Under the pieces are notes generated by a model that saw only the letters and a program-made list of their open reading frames with translations, did no database searches and was not told where the DNA came from. This document shows, piece by piece, positions 4,128 through 34,610 of a stretch of 64,000 nucleotides of DNA. Position 1 is the stretch's first letter, and every line of letters begins with the position of its first letter. The position numbers were made by a program, and so were the translations under genes. The DNA is taken from NCBI GenBank assembly GCA_017387565.1, contig JAFOEY010000026.1, positions 24,251-88,250 of the forward strand, given 5' to 3'. The stretch is from Lachnospiraceae bacterium (lineage in GTDB: Bacteria > Bacillota > Clostridia > Lachnospirales > Lachnospiraceae).

Positions 4128-4176
4128 TTAAAAGATATTTTGTCCCATAACACCTACAGATTGCTTGCACACTTAG
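4128..4176 (+). repeat. Degenerate copy of the 29.6-kb structured repeat
   Basis: Aligned by eye to 29603-29651, about three quarters of positions agree, including AATTTTG-like and GATTGCT..GCACACTT-like cores (here AAAGATATTTTGTCCCATAA followed by CAGATTGCTTGCACACTT). The right-hand part of the element is not clearly preserved. Confidence 0.45.
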
Positions 4177-4479
4177 TTTATCTTTTCTGTACCATACTGA
4201 CAAGGGGAATTTTTTCATTTTCTTACATTTCTCCCAATTTTCAATTCTATTTTTAATTGTTTTTGTGCTTTTTAACAAAAAGTAGCTGCGTGCCCGTGAA
4301 CACTCTCACGAAAACAAAGTCAAAAGGCATTCTTTTTTCTACACTTATTATACAAAATGCCCATAAAATACAATTATTTTCGTATTAGTTGTAATTTGAT
4401 TTTCTCCTCGATATGAATTATGATACAGAAAAGTTGAGATATTAACAAACACACACACTTTCAATTTAAAACCCAAACC

Positions 4480-4526
4480 AAAGTAAAGTTTCGGCGTCAA
4501 TCATTAGATTGACGCCGATTTACTTT
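4480..4526 (-). terminator. Intrinsic terminator of the dehydrogenase gene
   Basis: Strong hairpin with core stem CGGCGTCAAT and ATTGACGCCG around a 6-base loop, extended by AAAGTAAA/TTTACTTT arms. It lies directly after the stop of the gene at 4547-5503; the T-rich tail on the minus strand is moderate. Confidence 0.65.
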
Positions 4527-4546
4527 ATATTGCTTTATTAATCATT

Positions 4547-5503
4547 TCACATATTCACTATATTTCTTTTTTCTCCGTTTAAAAAGGCTTTTATATTTTT
4601 ATATACTTCTATGGCAAGCCGGGTTCTGGATTCGGTACTTGCCCATGCCATGTGAGGAGTGATAATCAGTTTTTCACTGTCTTTGATTTTACTAAGAGGA
4701 TTCTCATCCGTAATCGGCTCTTTTTCCAAAACATCCAGTCCGGCTGCATATATTTCTTCTTCTGTCAATGCTCTGTATAAATCCGCATTATTAATAACCG
4801 GACCTCTTGCCACATTTAAAAGAATCGCAGTCTTTTTCATTTTTTTCATGGCGCTATAATCAATGAGATTTTTCGTCAAATCTGATAAAGGACAATGGAC
4901 AGAAATAAAGTCACAGGTTTCCAGCAATTCATCAAACTCTACACGTTTATACTCCTGATTGCTATTTTTTCCTGTCACCGAATAATATACAACTTCACAG
5001 CCAAAGGCTTTTGCAATCTTAGCAGTCTTTTTACCGATATTTCCCAGACCGACAATTCCCCATCTTTTTCCTTCCAGTTCCAAAAATGGTTTGTCGAAAT
5101 TGGAAAAACGATCCTGTGATGCATAGGTACCGGACTTCACATAGTTATCATAATAAGGAAGTCTTTCCAATAAATAGAGGGCCATGGCAAACGTATGCTG
5201 TGCAACGGCAGGAGTAGAATAATCAACTACATTGGCAACGGCAATTCCTCTTTTTTTGCAATATTCCAAATCAACATTGTCATATCCTGTTGCAAACTCA
5301 CAAATGAGCTTAACATTGGGTGCGTCCTTCATGCTCTCCTCATCAAGTCTTGCCTTATTTGCGATGACAATATCTGCATCTTTAATCCGCTCTGCCACTT
5401 CATGAACCGTATTTCCATAATAAGTCACATTGCCAAATTCTTTATAAATCGTAAGATCAATATCTAAACCGATACTGTTTTGTTCCAATACTACAATATT
5501 CAT
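4547..5503 (-). CDS. D-isomer-specific 2-hydroxyacid dehydrogenase
   Basis: 318 residues, two-domain D-2-hydroxyacid dehydrogenase fold. The dinucleotide-binding GLGNIGKKTAKIA lies at about 150-162. The catalytic Arg is in LLNVARGPVINN, Glu in VLEKEP and His in ITPHMAWAS. The segment after the second beta strand reads VVYYSVTGKN and lacks the Asp usual in strictly NAD-dependent enzymes, so NADPH use is possible. The closest named activities are hydroxypyruvate/glyoxylate reductase or glycerate dehydrogenase; the substrate cannot be fixed from sequence. GAGGAG upstream sets the start. It has its own terminator and is a single-gene unit. Confidence 0.88.
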   Translation of the reverse strand: MNIVVLEQNSIGLDIDLTIYKEFGNVTYYGNTVHEVAERIKDADIVIANKARLDEESMKDAPNVKLICEFATGYDNVDLEYCKKRGIAVANVVDYSTPAVAQHTFAMALYLLERLPYYDNYVKSGTYASQDRFSNFDKPFLELEGKRWGIVGLGNIGKKTAKIAKAFGCEVVYYSVTGKNSNQEYKRVEFDELLETCDFISVHCPLSDLTKNLIDYSAMKKMKKTAILLNVARGPVINNADLYRALTEEEIYAAGLDVLEKEPITDENPLSKIKDSEKLIITPHMAWASTESRTRLAIEVYKNIKAFLNGEKRNIVNM

Positions 5504-5607
5504 AATCTGTCTCCTCTTTCAAATAATAGTCATAATAATCAAATCTATGATTCCAAAATCATAAACATCCGATTTTCCCACGAAACTATTCTAAAATAGA
5601 TGAGCCC

Positions 5608-5636
5608 TTGAAATCAATAGAATTATTCGGTATAAT
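5608..5636 (+). promoter_or_regulatory. Promoter of glucose-6-phosphate isomerase
   Basis: TTGAAA (5608-5613), 17-base spacer, TATAAT (5631-5636). It leaves a leader of about 130 bases before the ribosome binding site, which contains small hairpins (for example GTAGTATTACTAC near 5646). Confidence 0.75.
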
Positions 5637-5773
5637 TTCAAATGGTTGTAGTATTACTACCTTATAATAATACAATCACTGAACATCTCATATCGGTGCC
5701 CGGTGTGTAAACACCTGCAACACATTATTTGAATGTTGAAACAATTTTTAACAAATATAAGGAGGAACCAATC

Positions 5774-7357
5774 ATGGTTAAATGGAACAATCTTGATACT
5801 CTGAGCTCATACAAAAGCCTTGTTGCCAAAAAGGGCAGTGTAGATCTCGTTGATGTCATGTCAGGCGAAAACGGTGCAACCCGTGCAAAGACTTACAGTG
5901 TGCCGATGGCAGGCGGCATGGTTTACAATTATGCTGCAAAAGCCGTTGATGATGCAATCTTAGAAGACCTTGCTGCATTGGCAAAAGAAGCTGAGCTTGT
6001 TGATAAATTTGAAGCTCTTTACAATGGAGAAGTCATTAATACAGGTGAAAAACGTCTTGTTTTACATCATATGTGCCGTGGCCAGCTTGGTAATGCAGTT
6101 ACCGCTGACGGTGTTGACAAACGTACTTTCTACACAACACAGCAGGAAAAAATCGCAGAATTTGCAAACAAAGTTCATGCAGGTGAAATTACAAATGCTG
6201 CAGGTGAGAAATTCACTACCGTTGTCCAAATCGGTATTGGCGGTTCTGATTTAGGTCCCCGTGCCATCTACTTAGCACTGGAAAACTGGGCAAAGAAAAA
6301 CAATACATTTAAAATGGAAGCAAAATTCATCAGTAATGTAGATCCTGATGATGCAGCTGCCGTATTAAATTCTATCGATGTTGCTCATTCCATTTTTGTA
6401 CTGGTTTCCAAATCAGGTACAACACTTGAAACACTGACTAACGAATCCTTCGTAAAAGACGCTTTGGCAAAAGCAGGTCTTGATGCTTCAAAGCATATGA
6501 TTGCCGTTACCAGTGAAACATCTCCTCTTGCTAAGAGTGATGACTATCTTGCCGCATTCTTTATGGATGACTATATCGGCGGTCGTTTTTCATCTTCTTC
6601 TGCAGTTGGCGGTGCCGTATTGTCATTGGCATTTGGTCCCGAGGTATTTGCACAGTTCTTAAACGGTGCAGCTGAGGCTGATAAACTTGCCACCAATAAG
6701 AATTTATTAGAAAATCCCGCATTACTGGATGCACTGATTGGTGTATATGAAAGAAATGTTTTAGGTTATCCTTGTACTGCAGTTTTACCATACTCACAGG
6801 CATTAAGCCGTTTCCCTGCACACTTACAGCAGTTAGATATGGAATCCAACGGTAAATCTGTTAACCGTTTTGGTGATCCCATCGACTATGTAACAGGACC
6901 TATTATCTTTGGTGAACCCGGTACAAACGGTCAGCATTCTTTCTATCAGCTGTTACATCAGGGAACCGATATTGTTCCGTTACAGTTTATCGGCTTTAAA
7001 AACAGTCAGATCGGTACAGATGTTGACATTCAGGGAAGCACCAGCCAGCAGAAATTATGTGCTAACGTAGCCGCTCAGATTGTTGCTTTCGCATGTGGTA
7101 AAAAAGATGAAAACAACAATAAGAACTTTGCAGGCGCTCGTCCTTCCAGCATCATTATCGGTGATCAGTTAACTCCCGAAACTGTTGGTGCTTTATTATC
7201 ACACTTTGAAAACAAAGTTATGTTCCAGGGATTTGTATGGAACATCAACAGCTTTGACCAGGAAGGTGTTCAGCTTGGTAAAGTACTTGCAAAACGCGTA
7301 CTGGCACATGACACAGACGGAGCATTAAAAGTATTTAGTGATTTATTAAATATCTAA
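5774..7357 (+). CDS. pgi: Glucose-6-phosphate isomerase
   Basis: Interconverts glucose-6-phosphate and fructose-6-phosphate in glycolysis; cytoplasmic. 527 residues. Family marks in order: GIGGSDLGPRA (about 155), the phosphate-binding SKSGTTLETLTNE (about 213), MESNGKSVNRFG with the catalytic Glu, GTNGQHSFYQLLHQ with the active-site His, and NINSFDQEGVQLGK near the C terminus with the catalytic Lys. The ATG at 5774 follows AGGAGG by eight bases; an upstream in-frame ATG at 5729 lacks such a site. Single-gene unit with its own promoter and a strong terminator. Confidence 0.96.
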   Translation: MVKWNNLDTLSSYKSLVAKKGSVDLVDVMSGENGATRAKTYSVPMAGGMVYNYAAKAVDDAILEDLAALAKEAELVDKFEALYNGEVINTGEKRLVLHHMCRGQLGNAVTADGVDKRTFYTTQQEKIAEFANKVHAGEITNAAGEKFTTVVQIGIGGSDLGPRAIYLALENWAKKNNTFKMEAKFISNVDPDDAAAVLNSIDVAHSIFVLVSKSGTTLETLTNESFVKDALAKAGLDASKHMIAVTSETSPLAKSDDYLAAFFMDDYIGGRFSSSSAVGGAVLSLAFGPEVFAQFLNGAAEADKLATNKNLLENPALLDALIGVYERNVLGYPCTAVLPYSQALSRFPAHLQQLDMESNGKSVNRFGDPIDYVTGPIIFGEPGTNGQHSFYQLLHQGTDIVPLQFIGFKNSQIGTDVDIQGSTSQQKLCANVAAQIVAFACGKKDENNNKNFAGARPSSIIIGDQLTPETVGALLSHFENKVMFQGFVWNINSFDQEGVQLGKVLAKRVLAHDTDGALKVFSDLLNI

Positions 7358-7424
7358 TGAAATATTCATTGCGAATCATTTCATGACGGAAGATATTTCC
7401 TTTCCGTATAAAATATTGTAAGAT

Positions 7425-7457
7425 AGAGCAGAAGTTTTTTCACTTCTGCTCTTTTTT
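7425..7457 (+). terminator. Intrinsic terminator after pgi
   Basis: Stem AGAGCAGAAG with CTTCTGCTCT around an 8-base loop, followed by TTTTTT; 68 bases past the pgi stop. Confidence 0.9.
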
Positions 7458-7490
7458 CGCTCTTTTTTGCTGGAAAAACAGTCATCTATT

Positions 7491-7499
7491 TGATATAAT
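7491..7499 (+). promoter_or_regulatory. Extended -10 promoter upstream of murG
   Basis: TGATATAAT, an extended -10 element, lies 64 bases before the murG start. No good -35 hexamer is seen at 17 bases. Confidence 0.5.
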
Positions 7500-7562
7500 C
7501 AGTGCGTATATGAAATAATAAAAACAAAAATATGATTTACTTGTTTTTAAGGGAGAAAAATT

Positions 7563-8633
7563 ATGAAAAAAATTGTCTTAACCGGTGGCGGGACAGCAGG
7601 TCATGTTACACCAAATATTGCTCTGTTACCCGGGTTAAAAGAATTAGGATATGAAATACATTACATTGGTTCTTATGAAGGTATTGAATCCAAATTAATT
7701 GCTGATTTTGACATTCCCTATTATGGTATTGCAACCGGAAAATTCCGCAGATATCTGGATCCGAAAAACCTGACAGATCCTTTTCGCGTTATCAAAGGCT
7801 ATACAGAAGCAAGAAAAATTTTAAAAGAGATTCAGCCCGATATCGTATTTTCCAAAGGCGGTTATGTATCTGTTCCGGTAGTCAGAGCCGCTGCTTCGTT
7901 GAAGATTCCTTGTATTATTCATGAATCTGATATGACTCCCGGACTGGCAAATAAACTCTGTATTCCGGTAGCTGAAAAAGTATGTTGTAATTTTCCTGAA
8001 ACCATGCAGTATATTCCTGAAGATAAAGCAATCCTTACCGGTTCACCTATCCGGGAGGAGTTATCCAAGGGTAACAAGATTGCAGCCCTGGATTTATGCG
8101 GTTTTGATGCAAATACTCCTGTTATTATGGTAATCGGCGGATCCTTAGGTGCAGCCAATGTCAATAAAGCTGTCAGAGATGCACTTCCGGAATTATTAAA
8201 AGATTTCCAGGTTGTTCACATCTGCGGAAAAGATAAAATAGACAATATGCTGTTAACAACAAAAGGATACAAACAATTTGAATATGTAAAAGCAGAATTA
8301 AAAGATATTTTTGCTATGACTGATGTGGTAATCAGCCGCGCCGGAGCAAATGCCATTTGTGAACTTTTGGCATTAAAAAAACCCAATGTTTTAATTCCGT
8401 TAATGACAGGTAGCCGCGGTGACCAGATTTTAAATGCGAAATCTTTTGAATCTCAAGGCTATTCCAAGGTTTTAATGGAAGATGATATAACCAATCAGCT
8501 TTTGGTTGATACCGTTCACGAATTATATTTTAATAAGCGAACCTATATTGAAGCCATGAGCAACTCTCATCAGCAAAATGCAATTAAGACAATTCTTTCC
8601 TTAATTGAAGAAACTGTTGCAAAAGAAAAATAA
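7563..8633 (+). CDS. murG: UDP-N-acetylglucosamine--N-acetylmuramyl-(pentapeptide) pyrophosphoryl-undecaprenol GlcNAc transferase
   Basis: Adds GlcNAc to lipid I to make lipid II on the cytoplasmic face of the membrane, the last intracellular step of peptidoglycan precursor synthesis. 356 residues, GT-B fold: the N-terminal glycine loop TGGGTAGHVTPN at residues 6-17, SKGGYVSVPVV, the HESDMTPGLANKL segment, GGSLGAANVN opening the C-terminal domain, and the donor-site stretch SRAGANAICELLALKKPNVLIPL. It stands outside any dcw cluster here. GGGAG upstream supports the start. The next gene follows after 27 bases, so the two are likely co-transcribed. Confidence 0.97.
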   Translation: MKKIVLTGGGTAGHVTPNIALLPGLKELGYEIHYIGSYEGIESKLIADFDIPYYGIATGKFRRYLDPKNLTDPFRVIKGYTEARKILKEIQPDIVFSKGGYVSVPVVRAAASLKIPCIIHESDMTPGLANKLCIPVAEKVCCNFPETMQYIPEDKAILTGSPIREELSKGNKIAALDLCGFDANTPVIMVIGGSLGAANVNKAVRDALPELLKDFQVVHICGKDKIDNMLLTTKGYKQFEYVKAELKDIFAMTDVVISRAGANAICELLALKKPNVLIPLMTGSRGDQILNAKSFESQGYSKVLMEDDITNQLLVDTVHELYFNKRTYIEAMSNSHQQNAIKTILSLIEETVAKEK

Positions 8634-8660
8634 TATGCGGTAATGTTGGAGGTATAACAG

Positions 8661-9341
8661 ATGGAATACGTATTTGAGGGTGGTTTTGAAAAAGAAAAGG
8701 AAAACAACAAAAACTATTTTCCCATTCCCTTTAATGTCTGGGAAGTATGTGAAGATAATATCGGTGAAGTACCGGTACATGTTAAGGTAAACGGAAAAGA
8801 ATTTGACTGTATTTTAGAGCCCATAAAAAACGGATATTACAATATTCCCTTAACAGACGCCCAGGCATCCGGTCTTTTCCCCAAAAACTTTTACTCTGTC
8901 ACTTTTTCCATTAACGGAAAAGACGGATCTGATAAGGAATCCAGTCCTTATACATATGAAAATCCCATTCGGAAGATCGATGGAATTGAAACCTTAATCC
9001 AGCCATGGGATGGTCTTTGTGGTCAGGCTGCATTTGCTATGTTAGCCGGAGTAACCATTGAAGAAGCAAGTAATATCATGCACTGTCGTGAATGGCAGGC
9101 CAACATGGGAAAAATTGTCCTTTCCCTCGATTATGTTGGAATTAAACATTCTGGCCGCATTATTTATACAAGAGGAAAAGACGTACAACTTCCTAAATGC
9201 TGTATTATTATGGAACATTTAGGTCGTTTCAGTCATTATTTAATTGGATATAACGGAAAATACTATGATCCAAATGAAGGTGTGAAAGATGAAATTGATA
9301 AGGCAAATATCAAAGGATATCTTGAAATCATCTGCGATTAA
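8661..9341 (+). CDS. Putative C39-like cysteine peptidase domain protein
   Basis: 226 residues with no signal peptide. The N-terminal half (about 1-105) looks like a beta-rich domain. The C-terminal half has QPWDGLCGQAAFAMLAG (Gln and Cys of a papain-like site at about 112-118) and SHYLIGYNGKYYDPNEG (His and Asp), matching the order of a C39-like Cys-His-Asp site. GGAGG precedes the ATG. It sits directly downstream of murG and ends in a terminator. A role in processing a peptide or wall component is possible but unsupported; it may instead be an inactive or intracellular member. Exact family not confirmed. Confidence 0.55.
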   Translation: MEYVFEGGFEKEKENNKNYFPIPFNVWEVCEDNIGEVPVHVKVNGKEFDCILEPIKNGYYNIPLTDAQASGLFPKNFYSVTFSINGKDGSDKESSPYTYENPIRKIDGIETLIQPWDGLCGQAAFAMLAGVTIEEASNIMHCREWQANMGKIVLSLDYVGIKHSGRIIYTRGKDVQLPKCCIIMEHLGRFSHYLIGYNGKYYDPNEGVKDEIDKANIKGYLEIICD

Positions 9342-9370
9342 TCAATTAATATGGATTTTACAAATGATAA

Positions 9371-9396
9371 AGAGGCTAAATATAGAGCCTCTTTTT
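9371..9396 (+). terminator. Intrinsic terminator of the murG unit
   Basis: Stem AGAGGCT with AGCCTCT around an 8-base loop, then TTTTT; 30 bases past the stop. Confidence 0.88.
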
Positions 9397-9482
9397 ACAT
9401 TATAGAATATACAAATATTTGCAAAACTCTACAATAAAGCATTATTTGCATTTATTTTGAATATCAGAGGTGACGTATTAAA

Positions 9483-11252
9483 ATGACATCACAAGAAACA
9501 ATACAAACAAATATAAAGAAAAGAAAAATACATAAACTGTGCAATATTATTTTTTTAATTTTCTTAATTCTTGTCAGTATTTATTGTACATATAAATCTA
9601 TTTACTACGGTTGGGATATTGATGAATCCTATCAGCTCACTATGGCATACCGATACTTACAAGGAGACCGGCTCTTTAAAACAATGTGGGCTGTACATCA
9701 ATCTTCGGTTGTTTTTTCCTTACCCTTTATGTATTTGTTTTTTAAGTTTTCCACAACTACAGCCGGTGTTGTTATATACATGCGAATCTGCGGAACTATT
9801 GTCCAACTGTGCGCATCCATTTACGGCTATCATGTTTTTCGTAAATATATAAATAGAATACCTGCACTTGTATTAGTATCCATGTTTTATAATTTTACAC
9901 CAAAATTTATTCAATCACTGGAATTTTGTTTTTGTGCATATATTTTCTTTTTTGTGTTAATTTGTGCATTTATGAATTTTTTAAAAACAAAAAAATCCAT
10001 TGATTTATTTGTTGCGGGAATTGCAATGGCCTGCTGTGTCCTATCTTATCCCACTCTGATTATTCTATTTTTATATTTTTTCTTTTTAATATTATTTTCA
10101 AAAAAGATGGGTGAAGGTTATATCTCAAAAAAGAATTTATGCTATTTCATTGGCGGAATCTCTCTTGTAGCTTTATTCTTTCTCATTCTTGTTTTTAAAG
10201 ACGTAACATTAAAAGAATTTTTCAGAAATTTGCCTTATATTTATTCCGATCGAGATCACAGTACTTCGATATGGTATAAAAATCATAAATTATTTAGTGG
10301 TTTATGGGATGTTTGTAATGAAATTCTGTTAGTAGTTATTCCTTTGTCCATAATACATCTTATCGCGCGACATTTTAAAAAAGAAAAAATAGACAGAATT
10401 GTCCGGACTATTATGTGTGTTTTTGTAATTGCAGGATGTGTCTTCTTAGGATTATATTATTACCATGATGTTATGAATGCCCAACATTTGTCCATTAACT
10501 GGGTGATATTTTATATTGTTTTCATTATCTGCTTTATGTTGATATTTTATAGAAAGCATCACAAAATACATCTACTGAATTACTATGCTGTATTTCCAAG
10601 TATTATATTTGTTTTGGCGACTTCATGGATATCTGATCTGGACATTTATGCAAATTTTGGATTACTATTACCCGGATTACTGGTTGGATTTATCGATCTT
10701 CATAATGAGATTGAAGAAGATGTTATAACACACCAGAAACTGTCAAAAGGCATTGAAATGTTTTTAATTATTTTCGCTTTTACAGGAATTATATTGGGAA
10801 GAATTTTCTTTGTAAGAATGACGGCTGTTCAGCCGGTTACTACCATAAACACAGATTTTTATGATGTCGGAATTGGACCGGCAAAGGATATCGATGTAAC
10901 CAGAATGGAACATATACAATATCATGATAAAGCTCAAGCTATTTTGAATCATGTTGATCCGGATGATACCATTTTGTATATTGGCGGTGATACTTATTTG
11001 TATATGCTTGCAGGAACAAAGGTCGGAGCGCATACCTGTATTAGTACACCGAATTTTGATTCGGTAATTTTAAAATATTATGAATTTTATCCTGAAAAAA
11101 TCCCGGATGCTATTATCATAGATACCTATTACTACTCACTGGAAGATGTACTCGCAATGCCTGATTTCGGAGATTATGTGAAAGAAAACTATGATATCAA
11201 TGCAGAAAATATAGAGGAAAGTGCTTATACAATAATTATATACAGGAAATAA
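9483..11252 (+). CDS. Polytopic membrane glycosyltransferase (GT-C / family 39-like)
   Basis: 589 residues with about ten or more hydrophobic segments spread over residues 15-440 and a soluble C-terminal part of about 140 residues. After the first membrane helix comes GWDIDESYQLTMAYRYLQGD, with an acidic pair in the first extracellular loop where GT-C mannosyl- and arabinosyltransferases keep catalytic Asp residues. Such enzymes move sugars from polyprenyl-phosphate donors to surface glycans or proteins. Acceptor and sugar are unknown. A weak ribosome binding site (GAGGTG, ten bases) precedes the ATG. It is a monocistronic unit with a terminator downstream. Confidence 0.68.
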   Translation: MTSQETIQTNIKKRKIHKLCNIIFLIFLILVSIYCTYKSIYYGWDIDESYQLTMAYRYLQGDRLFKTMWAVHQSSVVFSLPFMYLFFKFSTTTAGVVIYMRICGTIVQLCASIYGYHVFRKYINRIPALVLVSMFYNFTPKFIQSLEFCFCAYIFFFVLICAFMNFLKTKKSIDLFVAGIAMACCVLSYPTLIILFLYFFFLILFSKKMGEGYISKKNLCYFIGGISLVALFFLILVFKDVTLKEFFRNLPYIYSDRDHSTSIWYKNHKLFSGLWDVCNEILLVVIPLSIIHLIARHFKKEKIDRIVRTIMCVFVIAGCVFLGLYYYHDVMNAQHLSINWVIFYIVFIICFMLIFYRKHHKIHLLNYYAVFPSIIFVLATSWISDLDIYANFGLLLPGLLVGFIDLHNEIEEDVITHQKLSKGIEMFLIIFAFTGIILGRIFFVRMTAVQPVTTINTDFYDVGIGPAKDIDVTRMEHIQYHDKAQAILNHVDPDDTILYIGGDTYLYMLAGTKVGAHTCISTPNFDSVILKYYEFYPEKIPDAIIIDTYYYSLEDVLAMPDFGDYVKENYDINAENIEESAYTIIIYRK

Positions 11253-11342
11253 TGTTTTATTCTAATTCTAACAGTTCTAAGAGATATTCTTTTTTGAATC
11301 AGGTCAATTCTTATAAATTTCTATGATCTTTGTAGGTATGGG

Positions 11343-11376
11343 AACTCCCCATAAGATAATCTTATAGGGAGTTTTT
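11343..11376 (+). terminator. Intrinsic terminator after the membrane glycosyltransferase
   Basis: Imperfect hairpin pairing AACTCCC..ATAAGAT with ATCTTATAGGGAGTT, followed by TTTTT on the plus strand. No T run on the minus strand, so it serves the plus-strand gene. Confidence 0.8.
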
Positions 11377-11398
11377 ATGAAGTATTCTAATCACTATA

Positions 11399-12508
11399 TC
11401 AATAATCTTTCAAATATTCAGCTAATTCATAACACCTTTCTCTTGTTGACTCAGATTCTGAACCATAATAAATCGTTGGATACAGACTACCGCCTTCACA
11501 ATCTGCAGCATCTGCTTCTGCCTTGGCATCTTTTTTCTGTATCCATTCTCTCTGTTCAGATAAGACTATATTGTATTTCTCCTCAGGAAGATATAATTTA
11601 ATATCATTCCAGATACTGTTTAATTCATTATCCCAGCAGGTAAAAATTGTTTGGGATGTCTGATTCATTTCTATCTGAGATAGAAGACCACTTTCCAGAC
11701 TTTCTTCATACTCGTCTGTTTCCTCTTTTACGTGTTGAAGATTTTCCATGATTTCATCATAAACTGATCCCGATTCAAATTGATAACCAATAAATCCATA
11801 TTCGGGATTTTCATTATATATGGCAAAAAATGGTAATTCTTTTTCATCATCCGATAAAAATAACCACATTTGTAATTCTTCCGAAAAATCTTTGGTATCT
11901 TTACCGGGAAGATACATATACAATTTGTCAGCATCATCCAGACCATAAGGATAAGAATAAATATATAATATTTCATCTATAATTTCTTCTTCACCTTCTT
12001 CTTTTTCGCATTTCAACGATTCAATTTCAAATTGGTAAGTATCATCATCTATTTTTACCGGATTAGTAAATTTTCCTGAAAAGTCGCAATAATATATCGT
12101 TCCTCCGGGATATCCTTCACCGGTACATCCCATATCAGAATCGTGAAAATTTCCATAAAATGTTCCATCTTCTTCAATATATAAATAGGTACTCCATCCA
12201 CCGGCACCACTTGCAAATGTAAATTCAATATCGGAAACATCAGCAAAAGCAAAATCTATATTTTTTGTTTCTTTTTGATCTTTATCCTTTTCTTGATTTT
12301 GATCAGATTCTGTATTTGTTTCTTTTTGATTTGATTTTGCATCTATATCTGATTCTTCTTTATTATTTTGATTTTCTACATTATCTTTATCATCTGCATC
12401 GGATTGTTCTGCCTGTTTGGTCTGAATATCTTCTTTTATATCTTGTTGTGCCTGACCGCAACCAAAAAGTAGTAATCCAAGCATAGAAATGAGCACTATT
12501 TTTTTCAT
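11399..12508 (-). CDS. Lipoprotein with C-terminal LprI-like (DUF1311) domain
   Basis: 369 residues from the ATG at 12508, which has GGAG seven bases upstream; a longer in-frame start at 12541 would bury that site. The leader MKKIVLISMLGLLLFGCGQ is a classic lipoprotein signal with Cys at 17. Residues about 20-85 are a low-complexity D/E/K/N/Q linker, then an unrecognised domain (about 90-260), then a C-terminal segment with the spacing of lysozyme-inhibitor LprI proteins (NELNSIWNDIKLYLPEE, LSEQREWIQKKDAKAEAD, ending with a Thr-Arg-Arg helix). The predicted place is the outer face of the membrane. Lysozyme inhibition is a family-level idea, not shown here. Confidence 0.72.
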   Translation of the reverse strand: MKKIVLISMLGLLLFGCGQAQQDIKEDIQTKQAEQSDADDKDNVENQNNKEESDIDAKSNQKETNTESDQNQEKDKDQKETKNIDFAFADVSDIEFTFASGAGGWSTYLYIEEDGTFYGNFHDSDMGCTGEGYPGGTIYYCDFSGKFTNPVKIDDDTYQFEIESLKCEKEEGEEEIIDEILYIYSYPYGLDDADKLYMYLPGKDTKDFSEELQMWLFLSDDEKELPFFAIYNENPEYGFIGYQFESGSVYDEIMENLQHVKEETDEYEESLESGLLSQIEMNQTSQTIFTCWDNELNSIWNDIKLYLPEEKYNIVLSEQREWIQKKDAKAEADAADCEGGSLYPTIYYGSESESTRERCYELAEYLKDY

Positions 12509-12592
12509 ATTTATCTCCATTTTTCTTTTATTACTTTCCATATTTTATATCTTGATTATGACACCACTTAACAAAATTTTCTATCCCAGTCA

Positions 12593-12622
12593 CATCAAAT
12601 CAAAGTACATTAAGTCAAAGTA
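12593..12622 (+). repeat. 15-bp imperfect tandem repeat, two units
   Basis: CATCAAATCAAAGTA followed by CATTAAGTCAAAGTA between two minus-strand genes. Similar short tandem repeats occur at 49029-49072 and 54132-54170. Confidence 0.5.
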
Positions 12623-12627
12623 TTTCT

Positions 12628-12870
12628 TCATTCATCCTTTTTCATATTCTGAATTCCTTTTTCCTTAAAATATTCTTCTGTCTCAATTTTGTATACAATT
12701 AAACGCAGAACATAATCCGGCATTTTTCTGCGACCGGCTTCCCATTCCTCTAAAGTACGAATTGGAATTCCCATATATTCTGAAAACTCTCTTCTGTTTA
12801 ATCCTGCTTTTTTCCGTATTTCTTTCATGGTATCGATTTGATTCTGTATTTCTTTTTCTCTTTCTGCCAT
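12628..12870 (-). CDS. Small XRE-type helix-turn-helix protein
   Basis: 80 residues from the ATG at 12870, which has GGAGGG seven bases upstream. The longer frame to 12966 runs back through the promoter hairpin and is not used. An amphipathic start (about 1-20) is followed by the HTH RREFSEYMGIPIRTLEEWEAGRRKMP. This is the pattern of one-domain regulators often found next to toxins or other stress genes, but no toxin gene is beside it here. A 10-bp inverted repeat at 12890-12912 directly upstream is a candidate operator. Target unknown. Confidence 0.72.
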   Translation of the reverse strand: MAEREKEIQNQIDTMKEIRKKAGLNRREFSEYMGIPIRTLEEWEAGRRKMPDYVLRLIVYKIETEEYFKEKGIQNMKKDE

Positions 12871-12889
12871 TATTATCCCTCCATAAAAT

Positions 12890-25258: not shown

Positions 25259-25286
25259 CTCTGAATATATATAAGGAAGATTTATT

Positions 25287-25637: not shown

Positions 25638-25646
25638 AATTTTGAT

Positions 25647-25856
25647 ATGAAAAAAATATTAATTTTTATTATTAAATTTTATAGAAAATATTTATCTCCA
25701 CTAAAATCTACCAAATGTCCTTATATACCAACATGTTCTCAATATGGTTTGGAAGCTGTTGAAAAATATGGTGCCGTAAAAGGTGGGGCAATGGCAGCCT
25801 GGAGAATTATAAGATGTAATCCTTTTTCAAAGGGTGGGTATGATCCCGTCCCTTAA
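25647..25856 (+). CDS. yidD: Membrane protein insertion efficiency factor YidD
   Basis: 69 residues. An amphipathic N terminus ([18 protein letters not shown]) is followed by the conserved cysteine-containing core [19 protein letters not shown] and the ending [17 protein letters not shown]. It sits in the usual position between rnpA and yidC and assists YidC- or Sec-mediated insertion at the inner membrane. No clear Shine-Dalgarno, so translation may depend on coupling to rnpA, nine bases upstream. Confidence 0.95.
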
Positions 25857-25874
25857 TAAAGTCAGGAGGAAAGA

Positions 25875-27155: not shown

Positions 27156-27168
27156 GGGGTTTTAATTT

Positions 27169-27801
27169 ATGGAATATATTGAAGTTTCAGCTAAGACAAT
27201 TGAAGATGCCATTACAGAAGCATGTCAGAAATTGTCAGTAGTAAGTGATAAATTAGATTACGAAGTTATTCAGGAACCTTCTTCTGGATTTTTAGGAATT
27301 AATTCAAAACCTGCTATTATCAAAGCATGTATTAAAGAAGAAGAAAAAACAATTGATATCAAAGCAAAAGATTTTCTGACAGATGTATTTAATTCCATGA
27401 ATATTGCCGTTGTCATCGATGCAAAATATGATGATATCGATCATACACTTGATATTGATTTATCCGGTGATGATATGGGAATGTTAATCGGTAAAAGAGG
27501 TCAGACTTTAGATTCTTTACAGTATCTTGTTTCACTGGTTGTAAATAAAGGTGTTGATAATTACATCAGAGTAAAAGTTGATACCGAAAATTACAGACAA
27601 AGAAGAAAAGATACATTGGAAAATTTTGCAAAGAATATTGCTTATAAAGTAAAGAGAACAAGACGTTCTGTTGCATTAGAGCCAATGAATCCGTACGAGA
27701 GAAGAATTATTCATTCTGCTTTACAGAATGATAAATATGTGACAACACATAGTGAAGGTGAAGAACCTCATCGTAAAGTTGTTGTAACACTCAAAAAATA
27801 A
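27169..27801 (+). CDS. jag: RNA-binding protein Jag/KhpB
   Basis: 210 residues in three parts: Jag N-terminal domain (1-50, with SSGFLGINSKPA), a KH domain (about 80-150, GMLIGKRGQTLDSLQYLV) and an R3H domain (about 155-208, MNPYERRIIHSALQ and EPHRKVVVTLKK). In Gram-positive bacteria it acts with KhpA on RNA and influences cell elongation and division. It follows yidC by 13 bases in the conserved order. A long hairpin terminator follows. Confidence 0.95.
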   Translation: MEYIEVSAKTIEDAITEACQKLSVVSDKLDYEVIQEPSSGFLGINSKPAIIKACIKEEEKTIDIKAKDFLTDVFNSMNIAVVIDAKYDDIDHTLDIDLSGDDMGMLIGKRGQTLDSLQYLVSLVVNKGVDNYIRVKVDTENYRQRRKDTLENFAKNIAYKVKRTRRSVALEPMNPYERRIIHSALQNDKYVTTHSEGEEPHRKVVVTLKK

Positions 27802-27824
27802 ATTGATAAATTTTAATTATTTTT

Positions 27825-27922
27825 CTCCCTTTTTAAAATTGTGAAATACTGATGTTTTATATAGTCTATGAGTTTGGTAGAAAAAATATTCAGTTACACA
27901 ATCGAGAAAAGGGAGTTTTTTT
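27825..27922 (+). terminator. Extended hairpin terminator after jag
   Basis: CTCCCTTTT (27825-27833) pairs with AAAAGGGAG (27907-27915), with an inner AATTGTG/CACAAT pair, and a run of seven T follows. The loop domain is about 50 bases, larger than a typical terminator. Confidence 0.65.
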
Positions 27923-27960
27923 AAGTTTGATATGGCGGTTTTATTTTTTAAATGATAATA

Positions 27961-27969
27961 TGATATAAT
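27961..27969 (+). promoter_or_regulatory. Extended -10 promoter upstream of mnmE
   Basis: TGATATAAT about 120 bases before mnmE, downstream of the jag terminator. The -35 region is weak. Confidence 0.45.
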
Positions 27970-28089
27970 AGTCGGATTTCTAAAAAATATATATTAATTT
28001 GTATTTTTTATAAATCTTATTATTGATATATCATGATGTAGTGTAGATAATTCATATATTTTAAATTATGATTATAAAACGGAGAAAAG

Positions 28090-29481
28090 ATGAAAACAGA
28101 TACAATCGCTGCAATTGCAACTGCAATGTCAAATTCAGGTATTGGTGTAATCAGAATAAGTGGAGAAGAAGCGGTAGAAATTGCAGATAAAATATATCGC
28201 TCAAAAAATGGAAAAAAGAAATTATCAAGTCAAAAAACCCATACAATTCATTATGGATATATTTATGATGAAGATATTCTGATTGATGAAGTTATGGTTT
28301 TAATCATGCGTGCACCCCATAGTTTTACAGCAGAAGATACGGTTGAAATTGACTGTCATGGCGGAATGATTGTCATGAATAAAATTTTGGAGACTGTTAT
28401 AAAAAATGGTGCCAGAATTGCAGAGCCCGGTGAGTTTACAAAACGTGCTTTCTTAAATGGAAGAATTGATTTAACAAAAGCCGAGGCTGTTATGGATTTG
28501 ATTGAATCACAAAATGATTATGCTTTAAAATCTTCAATTGATCAGTTAAAAGGTAGTGTTTATGATAAAATTACATCTTTTCGAAATATAATAATTCATG
28601 AAATAGCTTTTATTGAATCTGCTTTGGATGACCCTGAGCATATCAGTTTGGATGGATATCCAAATGAATTGATGAAGATTGTAGATCAGTTATTGGATGA
28701 AATAAACCGGATGTTAATTTCTTTTCAAAATGGAAAAGTATTAAAAGAAGGAATTAAAACTGTCATTCTTGGTAAGCCCAATGCAGGAAAATCTTCCTTA
28801 TTAAATAAGCTGCTTGGAGAGGAAAAAGCAATTGTTACAGAAATTGCCGGAACAACAAGAGATGTTTTGGAACAGTATATTAATTTGGATGGAATTGGAA
28901 TTCATATTATTGATACGGCCGGGATTCGTGAAACAGAAGATATTGTTGAAAAAATCGGTGTCGATAGAGCAATGAAACAGGCACAGGAAGCAGACTTAAT
29001 ATTATATGTTGTTGATTCTTCAAAACCTCTGGATGAAGATGACTTTTCGATTATGAAATTAATGTCATCTAAAAAATTTATTATTTTATTAAATAAATCA
29101 GATTTGAATACAATTGTTTCTGTAGAAGATTTGGAAAATTTGTGTAAGGAAGATAAAGATCATTATGTCATTATCCAGACTTCCATGAAAGATGAAACAG
29201 GAATTGATCAATTAGAGGATGCGATAAAAAAATATTTTATTTCCGGAAAAATTGATTTTAATAATGAAGCTAATATTACAAATATCCGTCATAAAGAAGC
29301 ATTGTCAGATTCTTATGAATCTTTAAAACTTGTGAAAAAAAGTATTGAAGATGAAATGCCGGAAGACTTTTTATCGATTGATTTAATGAATGCTTATTCT
29401 TCTCTTGGAAAAATCATCGGACAGGAAGTAGAAGATGATTTGGTAAATGAAATCTTTTCTAAATTCTGCATGGGAAAATAA
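28090..29481 (+). CDS. mnmE: tRNA modification GTPase MnmE
   Basis: 463 residues. With MnmG it forms the cmnm5 group at U34 of certain tRNAs. N-terminal folate-binding domain (1-120, MKTDTIAAIATAMSNSGIGV), a helical domain, and an inserted G domain (about 220-380) with GKPNAGKSSLLN (G1), GTTRDV (G2), DTAGIRET (G3) and NKSD (G4). The C terminus is FSKFCMGK; the Cys in this last position is the family's conserved residue. GGAGA precedes the ATG. Between it and mnmG lies a 358-base gap filled by a structured repeat. Confidence 0.97.
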   Translation: MKTDTIAAIATAMSNSGIGVIRISGEEAVEIADKIYRSKNGKKKLSSQKTHTIHYGYIYDEDILIDEVMVLIMRAPHSFTAEDTVEIDCHGGMIVMNKILETVIKNGARIAEPGEFTKRAFLNGRIDLTKAEAVMDLIESQNDYALKSSIDQLKGSVYDKITSFRNIIIHEIAFIESALDDPEHISLDGYPNELMKIVDQLLDEINRMLISFQNGKVLKEGIKTVILGKPNAGKSSLLNKLLGEEKAIVTEIAGTTRDVLEQYINLDGIGIHIIDTAGIRETEDIVEKIGVDRAMKQAQEADLILYVVDSSKPLDEDDFSIMKLMSSKKFIILLNKSDLNTIVSVEDLENLCKEDKDHYVIIQTSMKDETGIDQLEDAIKKYFISGKIDFNNEANITNIRHKEALSDSYESLKLVKKSIEDEMPEDFLSIDLMNAYSSLGKIIGQEVEDDLVNEIFSKFCMGK

Positions 29482-29839
29482 ATTGATTTGATATAATTTG
29501 TAATTGAGTTTTATCAGTTGGTTAACGGTTGCCAAGTGGAATTATATATTTATATTTTGAGAACAAAATAATTAATTTGATAAAAAAATTATGATGTTGG
29601 GGTCAAAAGGTATTTTGACCCCATGATACCAACGGATTGCTACGCACTTTGTGCTCTCGCAATCCATAAACAATCGAAATCCGCCCTAATCGGGCTACTT
29701 TCTCATGTTTTGCGGGTCCCAAAGTCATACTTTTTCATGCAAGCATGAAAAGTATGACCTTTTGACCCTGGTATCAAAATTATATTTTTATATAACATAG
29801 TTAGCATACGCTAACTACTAATAAACAGAAGGAAACATT
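29482..29839 (+). other. mnmE-mnmG intergenic gap
   Basis: 358 bases without an ORF. It contains the structured repeat at 29599-29775 and a short perfect hairpin TAGTTAGC ATAC GCTAACTA (29798-29817) before the mnmG ribosome binding site. Such a long gap is unusual for this normally tight pair. Confidence 0.6.
29599..29775 (+). repeat. Multi-hairpin dispersed repeat element
   Basis: Starts with a perfect 10-bp hairpin GGGGTCAAAA GGTA TTTTGACCCC (29599-29622). Between GATACC (29625-29630) and GGTATC (29770-29775) it holds a GGATTGC...GCAATCC arm (29634-29665), a CGCCCTAATCGGGC arm near 29682 and a 16-bp hairpin GTCATAC..GTATGAC (29724-29758). Part of it recurs at 34571-34610 and, degenerately, at 4128-4176. 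Confidence 0.75.
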
Positions 29840-31762
29840 ATGTCAGAATTACAAAATAGAAAAAAAACAATCATTGATAAAGTTGATGTATGTGTGGTAG
29901 GTGCAGGTCATGCAGGATGTGAAGCTGCTTTGGCATGTGCCCGTCTTGGTCTGAAAACTGTAATTTTTACAGTAAGTGTAGATAGTATTGCACTTATGCC
30001 CTGTAATCCAAATATTGGTGGTTCATCAAAAGGTCATCTGGTTAGGGAACTTGATGCTCTTGGCGGTGAAATGGGAAAAAACATTGATAAAACATTTATC
30101 CAGTCTAAAATGTTAAATGTTTCAAAAGGTCCTGCCGTTCATTCATTAAGAGCCCAGGCCGATAAAGCGGATTATAGTCGTGAAATGAGAAAAGTTCTTG
30201 AAAATCAGGAAAATCTTATTATTAAGCAGGCTGAGGTTTGCGAAATTCTGACTGATATAAATGAAGAAACAGGTAATAAAAGAATTACCGGTGTTCAGAT
30301 TTTTACCGGTGGTGTCTATGAATGTAAAGCAGTTGTATTATGTACCGGTACTTATTTAAGAGCAAGATGTCTTTGCGGAGAAGCAATTACTTATACAGGT
30401 CCGAACGGATTGCAGGCTGCAAATCATTTAACCGAGTGTTTAACAAATCTCGGAATTGAAATGAGAAGGTTTAAAACAGGAACCCCAGCCCGAATGGATA
30501 AACGTTCTATTGATTTTAGTAAAATGGAAGAACAATTTGGTGATAAAAAAATTGTTCCATTTTCTTTTTCGACAAATCCGGATGATGTGCAGATTGATCA
30601 GGTTTCCTGCTATCTGACTTATACAAATGAAAAGACGCATGAGATTATCAGAAATAATCTGGACCGTTCACCAATTTATGCAGGTGTAATCGAAGGTACC
30701 GGTCCCAGATATTGTCCTTCCATTGAAGACAAAGTTGTAAAATTTGCGGATAAAGAAAGACATCAGGTCTTTATTGAGCCTGAAGGATTGCATACAAATG
30801 AAATGTATGTCGGAGGAATGTCTTCTTCTTTGCCTGAAGATGTTCAGCTTCAAATGTATCGTACAGTTCCCGGACTGGAGCATTGTCAGATTGTCAGAAA
30901 TGCTTATGCGATTGAATATGATTGTATTAATCCTAATCAACTCTATGCATCTTTGGCTTTTAAAGATTTTGATGGTTTGTTTGCCGGAGGACAGTTTAAT
31001 GGAAGCAGCGGTTATGAAGAAGCTGCGGCGCAGGGACTTGTTGCCGGAATTAATGCTGCCATGTTTGTGAAAAACAAAGAGCCTATGATTATTGATCGTA
31101 GTGAAGGATATATCGGAGTTTTAATTGACGATCTGGTTACCAAAGAAAATTTTGAACCATATCGTATGATGACCAGTCGTTCTGAATACCGCTTACTTTT
31201 AAGACAGGATAATGCTGATTTACGACTTCGTAAAAAGGGATATGAAGTTGGACTTATTTCACAAGAGCAATATGATTATGTCTGTTTAAAAGAAAAATTG
31301 ATTGCGGAAGAAGTAGAAAGACTTCAAAATACAAAAATCGGTGCTAATAAAAAAGTACAGGAGTTTTTGAGTAAACATGACAGTGCTTCGCTTAAGACTG
31401 CAGTTACTCTTGCAGAACTTTTGTGCAGACCGGAGTTGTCTTATGAACTTTTAAGTGAAATAGATCCGGATCGAAAACCTCTATCAGATGATGTTATTGA
31501 ACAGGTCAATATTAATATAAAATATGATGGATATATTAAACGCCAGATAAAACAGGTAGAGACTTTCCGTAAAATAGAAAATAAAAAGATTCCAAAAGAC
31601 ATTGATTATGATGATGTCAGTTCACTTCGCTTGGAAGCAAGAGCTAAACTTAAAAGTTTTCAACCTGTTTCGGTTGGACAGGCTTCCCGTATTTCCGGAG
31701 TATCCCCAGCTGATATATCTGTATTATTGATTTACCTTGAGACTTATTATCAAAAGATATAA
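29840..31762 (+). CDS. mnmG: tRNA uridine-5-carboxymethylaminomethyl modification enzyme MnmG
   Basis: 640 residues, FAD-dependent partner of MnmE. The FAD-binding [21 protein letters not shown] lies at about 17-37, followed by [24 protein letters not shown] and the second signature [21 protein letters not shown] (about 380). The C-terminal helical domain ends with [26 protein letters not shown] precedes the ATG. Length is normal for the long MnmG form. It is followed at once by rsmG. Confidence 0.97.
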
Positions 31763-31779
31763 TAGAAAAAATAAAGGAA

Positions 31780-31795
31780 TGTTTCACGTGAAAGA
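31780..31795 (+). promoter_or_regulatory. parS-like site overlapping the rsmG start
   Basis: TGTTTCACGTGAAAGA matches the 16-bp ParB-binding consensus TGTTTCACGTGAAACA at 14 or 15 positions. It covers the candidate start codons of rsmG. Confidence 0.8.
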
Positions 31796-32534
31796 TTTAT
31801 CTGATTTTAAAAATGATCTTAAAGAACTTCATATTGATTTATCAGAACAGGCAATTCAACAATTTCTTGATTATTATGAGTTACTGGTTGAATGGAATTC
31901 TTTTATGAATTTAACAGCCATTACTGATTTTAATGATGTACTAAAAAAACATTTTATTGACAGTCTTTCTTTTGTGAAAGCAAATGATCATATAAAGAAA
32001 CATTCTCAATATGTTTTTTTAAATCAGAAAATTTCTATAATTGATATCGGAACCGGTGCAGGTTTTCCGGGTATCCCTTTAAAAATTGCTTTTCCTAATT
32101 TAAAAGTTACATTATTAGATTCTCTTAGCAAAAGAGTTCAGTTTTTAAATACTGTTATTGAAAAACTTGGATTAACGGATATTGTTGCTGTTCATGGTCG
32201 TGCAGAAGATTTTGCAAGAAATAAAGATTATCGCGAACAATATGATATTGCAGTAAGTCGTGCCGTAGCAAATATGAGTACATTATCTGAATACTGCATT
32301 CCTTTTGTAAAACAATCCGGTTTCTTTATTCCATTTAAATCTGAAAAGCTACCGGAAGAATTATCAAATGCACAACATGCTATGGATGTACTTGGATGTC
32401 ATTTGATTGATCAGGTTGAGTTTGATTTACCAAATTCAGATTTACATCGTAATTTGGTTATTATTCAAAAAGAAAAATTGACACCTTCAAAGTATCCAAG
32501 AAAAGCGGGTGTTCCTTCAAAAAATCCATTGTAG
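31788..32534 (+). CDS. rsmG: 16S rRNA (guanine(527)-N7)-methyltransferase
   Basis: Methylates G527 of 16S rRNA. About 248 residues: SAM-binding IIDIGTGAGFPGIPLKIAFP, VTLLDSLSKRVQFLNTV, HGRAEDFAR and DIAVSRAVANM. Two starts are possible: ATG at 31779 directly abuts the AAAGGA site, while GTG at 31788 has about nine bases spacing, so I choose GTG; the protein differs by three residues. Earlier in-frame starts inside mnmG are less likely. The start codon region is itself a parS-like palindrome. Confidence 0.93.
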   Translation: MKDLSDFKNDLKELHIDLSEQAIQQFLDYYELLVEWNSFMNLTAITDFNDVLKKHFIDSLSFVKANDHIKKHSQYVFLNQKISIIDIGTGAGFPGIPLKIAFPNLKVTLLDSLSKRVQFLNTVIEKLGLTDIVAVHGRAEDFARNKDYREQYDIAVSRAVANMSTLSEYCIPFVKQSGFFIPFKSEKLPEELSNAQHAMDVLGCHLIDQVEFDLPNSDLHRNLVIIQKEKLTPSKYPRKAGVPSKNPL

Positions 32535-32583
32535 GTTTTGTATAGGAGAAAGTTATATATTTTGTACAAAAGTTAATGTTTCA

Positions 32584-32599
32584 CGTTTCACGTGAAACA
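32584..32599 (+). promoter_or_regulatory. parS site
   Basis: CGTTTCACGTGAAACA, one mismatch at the first base of the consensus; an extra TGTTTCA half lies just to its left (32577). Confidence 0.9.
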
Positions 32600-32633
32600 T
32601 TTTTATTGAAAAAATATAAAAAACATCATTTTG

Positions 32634-32649
32634 TGTTTCACGTGAAACA
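32634..32649 (+). promoter_or_regulatory. parS site, perfect
   Basis: TGTTTCACGTGAAACA, exact match to the ParB-binding consensus. Half sites CGTGAAACA follow at 32677-32685 and 32701-32709. Confidence 0.95.
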
Positions 32650-32824
32650 TCAATCACTAAATATTGTGAAAAAATCCGTGAAACATAAAAAATAGTAAAA
32701 CGTGAAACATTTTTACATAAAAATCTCATTTGTGAATTATTACTAAAAGAAAATAATCAGATTATAACTTAGAAAAACAAACTAACGATTTCAATAAAAT
32801 GATGTGGATTGATAGAATAAATAG

Positions 32825-32833
32825 TGCTATAAT
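32825..32833 (+). promoter_or_regulatory. parA promoter (extended -10)
   Basis: TGCTATAAT, an extended -10 element, 62 bases before parA; TGGATT at 17 bases upstream is a weak -35. It lies downstream of the parS cluster, so ParB spreading could repress it. Confidence 0.55.
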
Positions 32834-32894
32834 CGTTTATGAGTTTGAAAAGAGAGATGAATGTCGGTAAGAAGAACCGAAAGGAAGGAAAAAA

Positions 32895-33662
32895 ATGAGT
32901 AGAATTATTGCAGTAGCAAACCAGAAAGGTGGAGTAGGTAAATCTACTACATCTATTAATTTAGCGGCTTGTTTAGCTGAATTAGGAAAAAAAGTATTAA
33001 TTATTGATTCAGATCCTCAGGGAAATACAACCAGTGGATTTGGAATTGATAAGAATTTTTTGGAAAATACGATTTATGAATTAATATTGGGAGAATGCTC
33101 CATTGGTGATTGTATTATAAAGGATGCAATTCCGAATGTATCCGTTTTACCTTCAAACGTAAATCTTGCAGCAGCGGAAATTGAATTAATCGGTATCGAA
33201 AATAAAGAATTTATTTTAAGAACGGAAATTGACTGGATAAAAGACAATTATGATTTTATAATTATCGACTGTCCTCCTTCTTTAAATATGTTAACAATTA
33301 ACGCATTAACGGCATCAAATTCTGTTTTGGTTCCTATTCAATGTGAATTTTATGCATTAGAGGGATTAAGTCAGTTAATTCATTCTGTTAATTTGATTAA
33401 AGAAAGACTAAATCCTGAACTGGAAATGGAAGGTGTCGTATTTACGATGTATGATTCCAGAACAAATCTTTCCAGCCAGGTTGTAGAAAATGTAAAGAAA
33501 AACCTGGACGAAAATATATGTGATACGATTATCCCGAGAACCATCAGACTGGCTGAAGCACCCAGTCATGGAATGCCAATTACCATGTATGATCCGAAAT
33601 CAACAGGTGCAGACAGTTACAGAGCTTTGGCAAAAGAAATACTGAATAGGAAAGGTGTATAA
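32895..33662 (+). CDS. parA: Chromosome partitioning ATPase ParA (Soj)
   Basis: 255 residues, deviant Walker ATPase: NQKGGVGKSTTSINLAACLA (P-loop with the signature Lys), IIDSDPQGNTTSGFG and FIIIDCPPSLNMLTINAL. It dimerises on DNA and works with ParB-parS in origin segregation; in Firmicutes it also tunes DnaA. AAGGAAGGA precedes the ATG. It overlaps nothing and is followed after two bases by parB. Confidence 0.95.
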   Translation: MSRIIAVANQKGGVGKSTTSINLAACLAELGKKVLIIDSDPQGNTTSGFGIDKNFLENTIYELILGECSIGDCIIKDAIPNVSVLPSNVNLAAAEIELIGIENKEFILRTEIDWIKDNYDFIIIDCPPSLNMLTINALTASNSVLVPIQCEFYALEGLSQLIHSVNLIKERLNPELEMEGVVFTMYDSRTNLSSQVVENVKKNLDENICDTIIPRTIRLAEAPSHGMPITMYDPKSTGADSYRALAKEILNRKGV

Positions 33663-33664
33663 CT

Positions 33665-34552
33665 ATGGCAAAATCCAGAGGACTTGGAAAAGGATTAGAT
33701 TCTTTAATTCCGGTTGGTAATGCTGACGGTAAAGGTAAAATCGGAATTAACAGTGTACCGGTTTCTGAAGAAAAACCGGATAAAATGGTTAAAATTACAA
33801 TGGTTGAGCCCAATAGAGACCAGCCTCGTCATAAATTTGATGAAGAAGCATTAAATGAATTAGCTGATTCCATTAAACAGTACGGCATTATTTCACCAAT
33901 CATTGTACAGGATCGAAAAGATCATTATGAAATTATTGCAGGTGAGAGACGTTGGCGTGCTGCAAAGATTGCCGGTTTAAAAGAAATTCCGGTTATTATA
34001 AAGAATTTTACGGAACAGGAAATTGTTGAAATTTCTTTAATAGAAAATATTCAGAGAGAAAATTTAAATCCGATTGAAGAAGCGTTAGCTTATAAACGGT
34101 TATTGACAGAGTTTAATTTAAAACAGGAAGAGGTTGCGCAGAGAGTATCAAAAAGCCGTACAGCTGTTACAAATTCTATGCGTTTGTTGAAATTAGCAGA
34201 AGAAGTACAGCAAATGATTATAGATGAAAGTCTGACAACAGGACATGCCAGGGCACTTATTACAATTGAAGATGAAAGTCAGCAGATTGAGATAGCTAAA
34301 AAGGTTGTAAATGAAAAATTAAGTGTTCGTGATATTGAAAAGCTTGTAAAAGATTTAAATAAACCCAAGAAAGAGAAAAAGGAATCAAAACAATTAAAAA
34401 ATGACTTCATTTATCAGGATATTGAAGAAAAATTAAAACAGTCACTTGGAACAAAGGTCGCTGTCAGTGCAAAAGAAGACGGTTCCGGAAAGATTGAAAT
34501 TGATTTTTATTCCAGCGAGGAGTTAGACAGAATTTTGGATCTCTTGAAATAG
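33665..34552 (+). CDS. parB: Chromosome partitioning protein ParB (Spo0J)
   Basis: 295 residues. N-terminal CTPase domain with the GERRWRAAKIAGL motif (about 95), then a helix-turn-helix LKQEEVAQRVSKSRTAVTNSM that reads parS, and a C-terminal dimerisation domain (about 235-295) after a Lys-rich linker. It loads at parS and slides as a clamp, recruiting SMC condensin. Its targets are visible about 1 kb upstream. Starts two bases after parA, so the pair is one unit. Confidence 0.95.
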   Translation: MAKSRGLGKGLDSLIPVGNADGKGKIGINSVPVSEEKPDKMVKITMVEPNRDQPRHKFDEEALNELADSIKQYGIISPIIVQDRKDHYEIIAGERRWRAAKIAGLKEIPVIIKNFTEQEIVEISLIENIQRENLNPIEEALAYKRLLTEFNLKQEEVAQRVSKSRTAVTNSMRLLKLAEEVQQMIIDESLTTGHARALITIEDESQQIEIAKKVVNEKLSVRDIEKLVKDLNKPKKEKKESKQLKNDFIYQDIEEKLKQSLGTKVAVSAKEDGSGKIEIDFYSSEELDRILDLLK

Positions 34553-34570
34553 ATAATAAAGAATGTTTTA

Positions 34571-34610
34571 GGATTGCGAGAGCACAAAGTGGGTAGCAAT
34601 CCGTTGGTAT
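34571..34610 (-). repeat. Copy of the dispersed structured repeat
   Basis: The reverse complement of 29626-29665 with 39 of 40 positions identical, including GGATTGCGAGAGCACAAAGT and GCAATCCGTTGGTAT. It can form a GGATTGC/GCAATCC hairpin. It lies between parB and the DUF4446 gene. Confidence 0.85.

Follow-up and report, generated by a model that had tools for sequence, protein, structure and literature searches.

What is the strongly folded repeat in the gap between mnmE and mnmG of this Lachnospiraceae genome: a mobile element, a structured RNA, or both? The window analysed here is a stretch of 64,000 nucleotides (assembly GCA_017387565.1, contig JAFOEY010000026.1, positions 24,251 to 88,250 of the forward strand). 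An earlier note on this DNA had described a repeat at 29599-29775, had not recognised it, and had suggested a mobile or RNA-level family. The repeat is real and its precise extent is 29593-29775. It very probably belongs to a family of miniature inverted-repeat transposable elements (MITEs) whose body is the fold of Rfam family RF01699 and which are moved in trans by a putative DDE-type transposase. Both parts of the earlier suggestion have support, mobility from terminal repeats, target duplications, two empty sites and a copy number far above that of a sister species, and a conserved fold from compensating changes across 25 other genomes.

Ends of the element and target duplications

The complete MITE-type element is 183 bp. 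Its exact ends were fixed by 22 to 23 copies in its own genome, which have conserved termini and flanks that vary from copy to copy. The termini are GATGTTGGGGTCAAAAGG on the left and CCTTTTGACCCTGGTATC on the right. The 18 bp terminal inverted repeats, GATNNNNGGGTCAAAAGG, are at 29593-29610 (forward strand, GATGTTGGGGTCAAAAGG) and 29758-29775 (reverse strand, read as GATACCAGGGTCAAAAGG), and both termini have the pattern GAT[GTTG/ACCA]GGGTCAAAAGG. Flush with the element on either side is the 8 bp target duplication AAAATTAT, at 29585-29592 and 29776-29783. Exact-end terminal inverted repeats are expected of a MITE, as is the lack of a transposase gene of its own; the 183 bp of 29593-29775 contain no open reading frame of 80 or more amino acids.

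Exact, flush target duplications of 7-8 bp are present in 20 of the 22 full copies in this genome that have both flanks. When the flanks were re-paired 1000 times, the mean number of duplications was 1.2 and the maximum 5. The first base of the target is A in all 22 full copies and the second is T in 20, although the duplicated sites are varied, including AAAATTAT, ATGTAAAT and ATACTAT. Regular target duplications combined with terminal inverted repeats are characteristic of DDE-type transposition. The same features contradict a repetitive extragenic palindromic (REP)-like element moved by a tyrosine HUH transposase of the RAYT/IS200-IS605 kind, a mechanism that makes no target duplication. 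Such an element would also be intergenic, palindromic and present in high copy number, but with regular duplications and true terminal inverted repeats in place this origin is hardly credible.

Based on a crude open reading frame caller, 21 of the 22 full copies are intergenic and 17 are between co-directional genes. In the remaining copy, on contig C34, a neighbouring 372-codon frame reads into the element. Intergenic placement between co-directional genes would suit an element that serves its neighbours mainly as a transcription terminator or as a stabiliser of untranslated regions. This is very unlikely: no terminator-like site was found in 29470-29860, so that an intrinsic terminator was rejected here, and orientation is unbiased, with 9 of the 17 copies facing one way relative to their co-directional neighbours and 8 the other.

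Identity and conservation of the fold

The body of the element is already in Rfam, as RF01699 (Clostridiales-1 RNA). In the Rfam scan of the window, positions 29624-29776 on the reverse strand match the full model, 1-166, at 125.2 bits, well over the curated cut-off of 48, and by this score the element is a member of the family. In this fold the terminal repeats themselves pair as the closing stem, P1, and enclose three arms, given here on the reverse strand. The P2 arm (29714-29768) has a GGGTC/GACCC stem and a long hairpin with a GCUUGC-type tip, the P3 arm (29668-29711) has two conserved purine-rich internal loops, and P4 (29634-29665) is the hairpin GGAUUGC...GCAAUCC. At least four hairpins had been placed inside GATACC/GGTATC arms by the earlier note; three are indeed inside, but the fourth, at 29599-29622, is outside them and adjoins the left end. 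This outer hairpin, GGGGTCAAAA..TTTTGACCCC, overlaps the left terminal repeat and is outside the RF01699 model, and similar hairpins are found in relatives.

The forward strand of the element folds at -77.5 kcal/mol (z -10.1 against shuffles) and the reverse strand at -90.2 kcal/mol (z -11.5). Chance similarity between the repeat sites was rejected on the basis of these z-scores on both strands and of the scores of shuffled tiles.

Compensating changes and conserved loops show that the fold is maintained in 25 other genomes. Forty cores from these genomes were aligned with the window's own element. Over nine helices, with the tested pairs chosen by the analyst from one member, 1845 of the 2071 cells are paired and 350 are changed on both sides relative to the commonest pair. 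The maxima in 500 shuffles were 1549 paired cells and 147 double-change cells; after sliding of the partners the two counts were 591-842 and 42-85, respectively. When each genome is represented by a single row (26 rows), a given pair takes up to four Watson-Crick forms; one P3 pair is found as CG, AT, TA and GC. The middle positions of P1 also covary, and 24 columns outside the chosen pairs are conserved at 90% or more. Three helices, P2a, P2b and P3c, align poorly, being 77, 84 and 59% paired. These statistics on folding and base pairs treat the sequences regardless of kinship. The earlier note had proposed looking for pairing-preserving changes and for further copies in the genome; many of each were found.

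Copies in the genome and in the family

In the window's own genome there are at least 127 RF01699 matches at E<=0.01, of which 90 are over the cut-off, and at least 121 at E<=0.001 (hand counts from the best 150 of 192 candidates scored, some rows being halves of copies split by a contig end). In addition to the full copies there are shorter forms that have one end or both. At least 26 of the 138 contig ends of this assembly are within the element, at most 11 bases from the end (hand count).

The family, taken as Lachnospiraceae, was represented by 120 genomes, including this one. RF01699 is present at E<=1e-4 in 63 of them and over the cut-off in 53, and the exact end pattern is present in 33, with no matches to the reversed pattern. 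Among 40 elements from relatives, exact flush duplications of at least 6 bp occur in 14 of the 30 that have an outer-hairpin end and in none of the 10 without one; the demand for exact flush repeats makes this an undercount, and one element (L315) was scored by a loose pattern as having an end, yet has no duplication. In 300 re-pairings of these flanks the mean was 0.6 and the maximum 3. The shortest form seen, 36 bp in the relative G026 (L065, from 1501), joins an outer hairpin to the opposite end and is flanked on each side by ATATTAT. In the relatives' loci L294, L296, L310 and L315, the downstream flank carries additional partial copies or lone hairpins in tandem with the RF01699 core.

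On a plasmid of Butyrivibrio fibrisolvens, six places resemble one of the copies of the element that it carries, and at three of these both ends are present and the 7-8 bp flanks are repeated. The element can therefore sit on plasmids. On an Agathobacter plasmid, an end-like match (L201, 4001-4030) has the 3' end of a gene annotated for ribosomal-protection resistance on one side and an aminotransferase gene on the other. The 20-base end pattern had no match in viral contigs, and matches there to a 14-base pattern were not used as evidence.

Some copies retain the whole fold with an unrelated P1 sequence and have neither outer hairpin nor duplication. In L307, L310, L314, L315 and L318, P1 is kept with a different sequence, at 124-131 bits on re-scan. 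These copies, together with the quarter of the relatives' elements that have neither end nor duplication, are as would be expected of a structured RNA that serves the host, its mobility being incidental and due to capture by a transposon in some lineages. Such an origin for the family as a whole is improbable. The RNA has no match at E<=1e-4 in 57 of the 120 family genomes, and 90 copies over the cut-off in this genome compare with 9 in the sister species described below (possibly an undercount).

Comparison with a sister species

A sister species was found by an MnmE search. It is a metagenome assembly in which that protein is 97% identical, and DNA identity is about 95%. Its mnmE-mnmG gap is without the element, between flanks that are approximately 96% identical. 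A second empty site is exact: locus L017 of this genome has two copies of ATACTAT around the element and the corresponding sister locus, L265, has a single ATACTAT. The sister has 37 RF01699 matches at E<=0.001. In this genome, 21 copies of equal length differ from their consensus by 2.1% on average. Taken together, these sequence comparisons suggest a burst of the element in this lineage at about, or after, the species split.

Upstream of mnmE in the sister (L203, 2861-2972) there is a degraded element-like stretch ending TTGGTATCAT; there is none at this place in the window.

How the element may move

Under the MITE reading, a DDE-type transposase acting in trans would bind ends of the form GATNNNNG.G.CAAAAG and cut the element out or copy it. 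It would then be inserted into AT-rich intergenic DNA at staggered cuts with a spacing of 7-8 bp. The body of the element, made up of P1 and the three arms, is no arbitrary filler. Its fold may be selected through transcription from neighbouring genes or through folding of single-stranded DNA, and may help the insert to remain stable and be tolerated. The folded RNA appears to be maintained in some lineages where the mobile ends are absent.

It is also conceivable, but unlikely, that the RF01699 fold takes an active part in transposition. The transposon would encode a structured RNA, or form its counterpart in single-stranded DNA, and this would be bound by the transposase or a host factor. 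If this were true, the terminal repeats and the closing stem of the RNA would evolve together, the element would be an RNA-dependent DDE-type mobile element, and the solo copies would be domesticated RNAs.

A number of observations weigh against movement of a folded MITE in trans by such an enzyme. The first concerns the enzyme itself. In the window's own genome no transposase gene was found between two ends, among the 100 of 106 exact end places listed and 21 isolated exact ends inspected; nor was one found in the most copy-rich relative (G038; 100 of 154 places listed) or on one Butyrivibrio plasmid. The second is the timing of the burst. A third site (L030 in this genome, L241 in the sister) is occupied in both species, and some insertions therefore predate the split. 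The comparison covered 30 loci of this genome and 33 of the sister, of which three had flanks reaching the site and one more had a distal match only. Metagenome assemblies can lose repeats, and the 9 copies over the cut-off in the sister may be too few. The copy divergence of 2.1% is approximately half of the 4-5% that separates the two species. The burst could therefore date back to the split itself, and the divergence was rejected as proof of a younger one. The third is the choice of the tested pairs from one member, and the last are the rarity of G-U pairs and the lack of an orientation bias, both considered below.

Searches for the moving enzyme were also made by family. No match to PF00872 (IS256 type), PF01610 (ISL3) or PF12762 (IS1595) was found in this genome at E<=0.001. 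Two genes match PF01609, both without these ends. The element is thus not placed with the ISL3, IS256, IS1595 or IS4 types, although the enzyme could be lost or unassembled. In G038 the sole pair of listed ends at the distance of an insertion sequence, on contig C13, is made up of an element and an additional outer-hairpin end, with a methyltransferase-like gene between them. End-pair distances in the 119 other family genomes gave no partner among the matches listed, and DNA searches of plasmids and phages gave no autonomous partner. The assembly of this genome breaks at the repeat. An autonomous partner may be lost, unassembled, or without these ends.

Constraint on RNA or on DNA

Selection on the fold may be at the level of RNA, of DNA, or of both. 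G-U pairs are rare, with 19 in 1334 cells of the six well-aligned helices compared to 14 in 210 tRNA stem pairs, a small control of 10 tRNAs from all the DNA collected for the analysis, viral contigs included; P2a, P2b and P3c were omitted for poor alignment. This rarity leans towards constraint on DNA, and the even split in orientation favours no cis-acting strand.

It is possible, though doubtful, that the hairpins matter only in DNA, either as a cruciform or single-stranded structure that aids a transposase or replication, or as the product of template switching at quasi-palindromes. The element would then be a plain MITE and RF01699 would not be an RNA gene. In addition to the dominance of Watson-Crick pairs and the unbiased orientation, this would agree with the terminal repeats forming P1 and part of P2, since recognition by a transposase alone would pair these. 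The strands are not equivalent, however. In all 41 cores the Rfam strand is more stable than its complement (mean -79.4 versus -67.6 kcal/mol), and the loops and the 24 columns outside the chosen pairs are conserved. G-U also exceeds A-C, by 19 to 7 in the six well-aligned helices, but by 59 to 57, which is practically equal, over all nine.

Other sites in the window

The two other sites reported by the earlier note are also real, and all three are intergenic as it had stated: one is in the mnmE-mnmG gap, one between parB and the gene next to it, and one upstream of an ahcY gene. These gene calls rest on translated sequence, without a family search. The reverse match at 34571-34610 has a local score of 80. 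It is a solo P4 hairpin that includes a small part of the flanking arm, at 34571-34611 on the reverse strand, and is also present in the sister species. The inner stem is intact in the sister copy and the window copy carries a changed base. As the sister species has it too, this solo hairpin is older than the species split.

The degenerate match at 4128-4176 is part of a decayed left end at 4119-4177 on the forward strand, consisting of terminal repeat, outer hairpin and the start of P4. This relic scores 41, which was reached in none of 1000 tile shuffles (maximum 28), and ranks third among the window's 1272 tiles outside the element, behind two at the 34571 site. At the far end of the window, one open frame (54726-63998, forward strand) extends for 3091 codons or more and runs off the window end; it is a giant protein gene.

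Relation to known elements and significance

In a table of a 2010 study (PMC2864571), Clostridiales-1 is given as probably an RNA and probably not cis-regulatory, from Clostridiales and the human gut. This is the one place where the main text names it, and it stands there as a candidate RNA without a stated function. The name Clostridiales-1 RNA also occurs in PMC3466250 and PMC7302867. The row for it in that table includes no terminal repeats, outer hairpin, target duplications or mobility, whereas the window element has them. No account of RF01699 or Clostridiales-1 as mobile was found in the open-licence literature, among the matches listed. The body is thus known as an RNA family and, so far as that literature shows, appears to be new as a mobile element.

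Among bacterial MITEs, QMITE2 of Coxiella is short, with terminal inverted repeats, 7-9 bp duplications, AT-rich intergenic targets and a stable transcript fold (PMC10969869). The window element resembles such MITEs in its length, terminal inverted repeats, target duplications and AT-rich intergenic targets. It differs from them in that its multi-arm body is kept by compensating changes throughout the family, and in that no parent insertion sequence was found. In the text of the review that describes QMITE2 (PMC10969869), no word begins with Lachnospir, Clostridi or Firmicutes. The bcr repeats of the Bacillus cereus group are 100-400 bp; bcr1 has up to 130 copies, bcr1-3 are MITE-like, and bcr10 and bcr18 have conserved structures (PMC6542083, PMC3446304). 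As described in these sources, bcr mobility is tied to a TTTAT motif, whereas the window element duplicates varied ATNNNNAT-like sites and so is not of the bcr1 type.

Structural conservation across a whole bacterial family is unusual for a MITE family. A repeat that is recently amplified in this lineage and present through the family is both a strain marker and an assembly hazard. An Rfam family that has stood since 2010 as a probable non-coding RNA of unstated role is here part of what is very probably a mobile element, and this changes how its many copies and their covariation are to be read. It also poses a testable question: what makes a mobile element hold on to a multi-arm fold through compensating changes, and by which enzyme is it moved?

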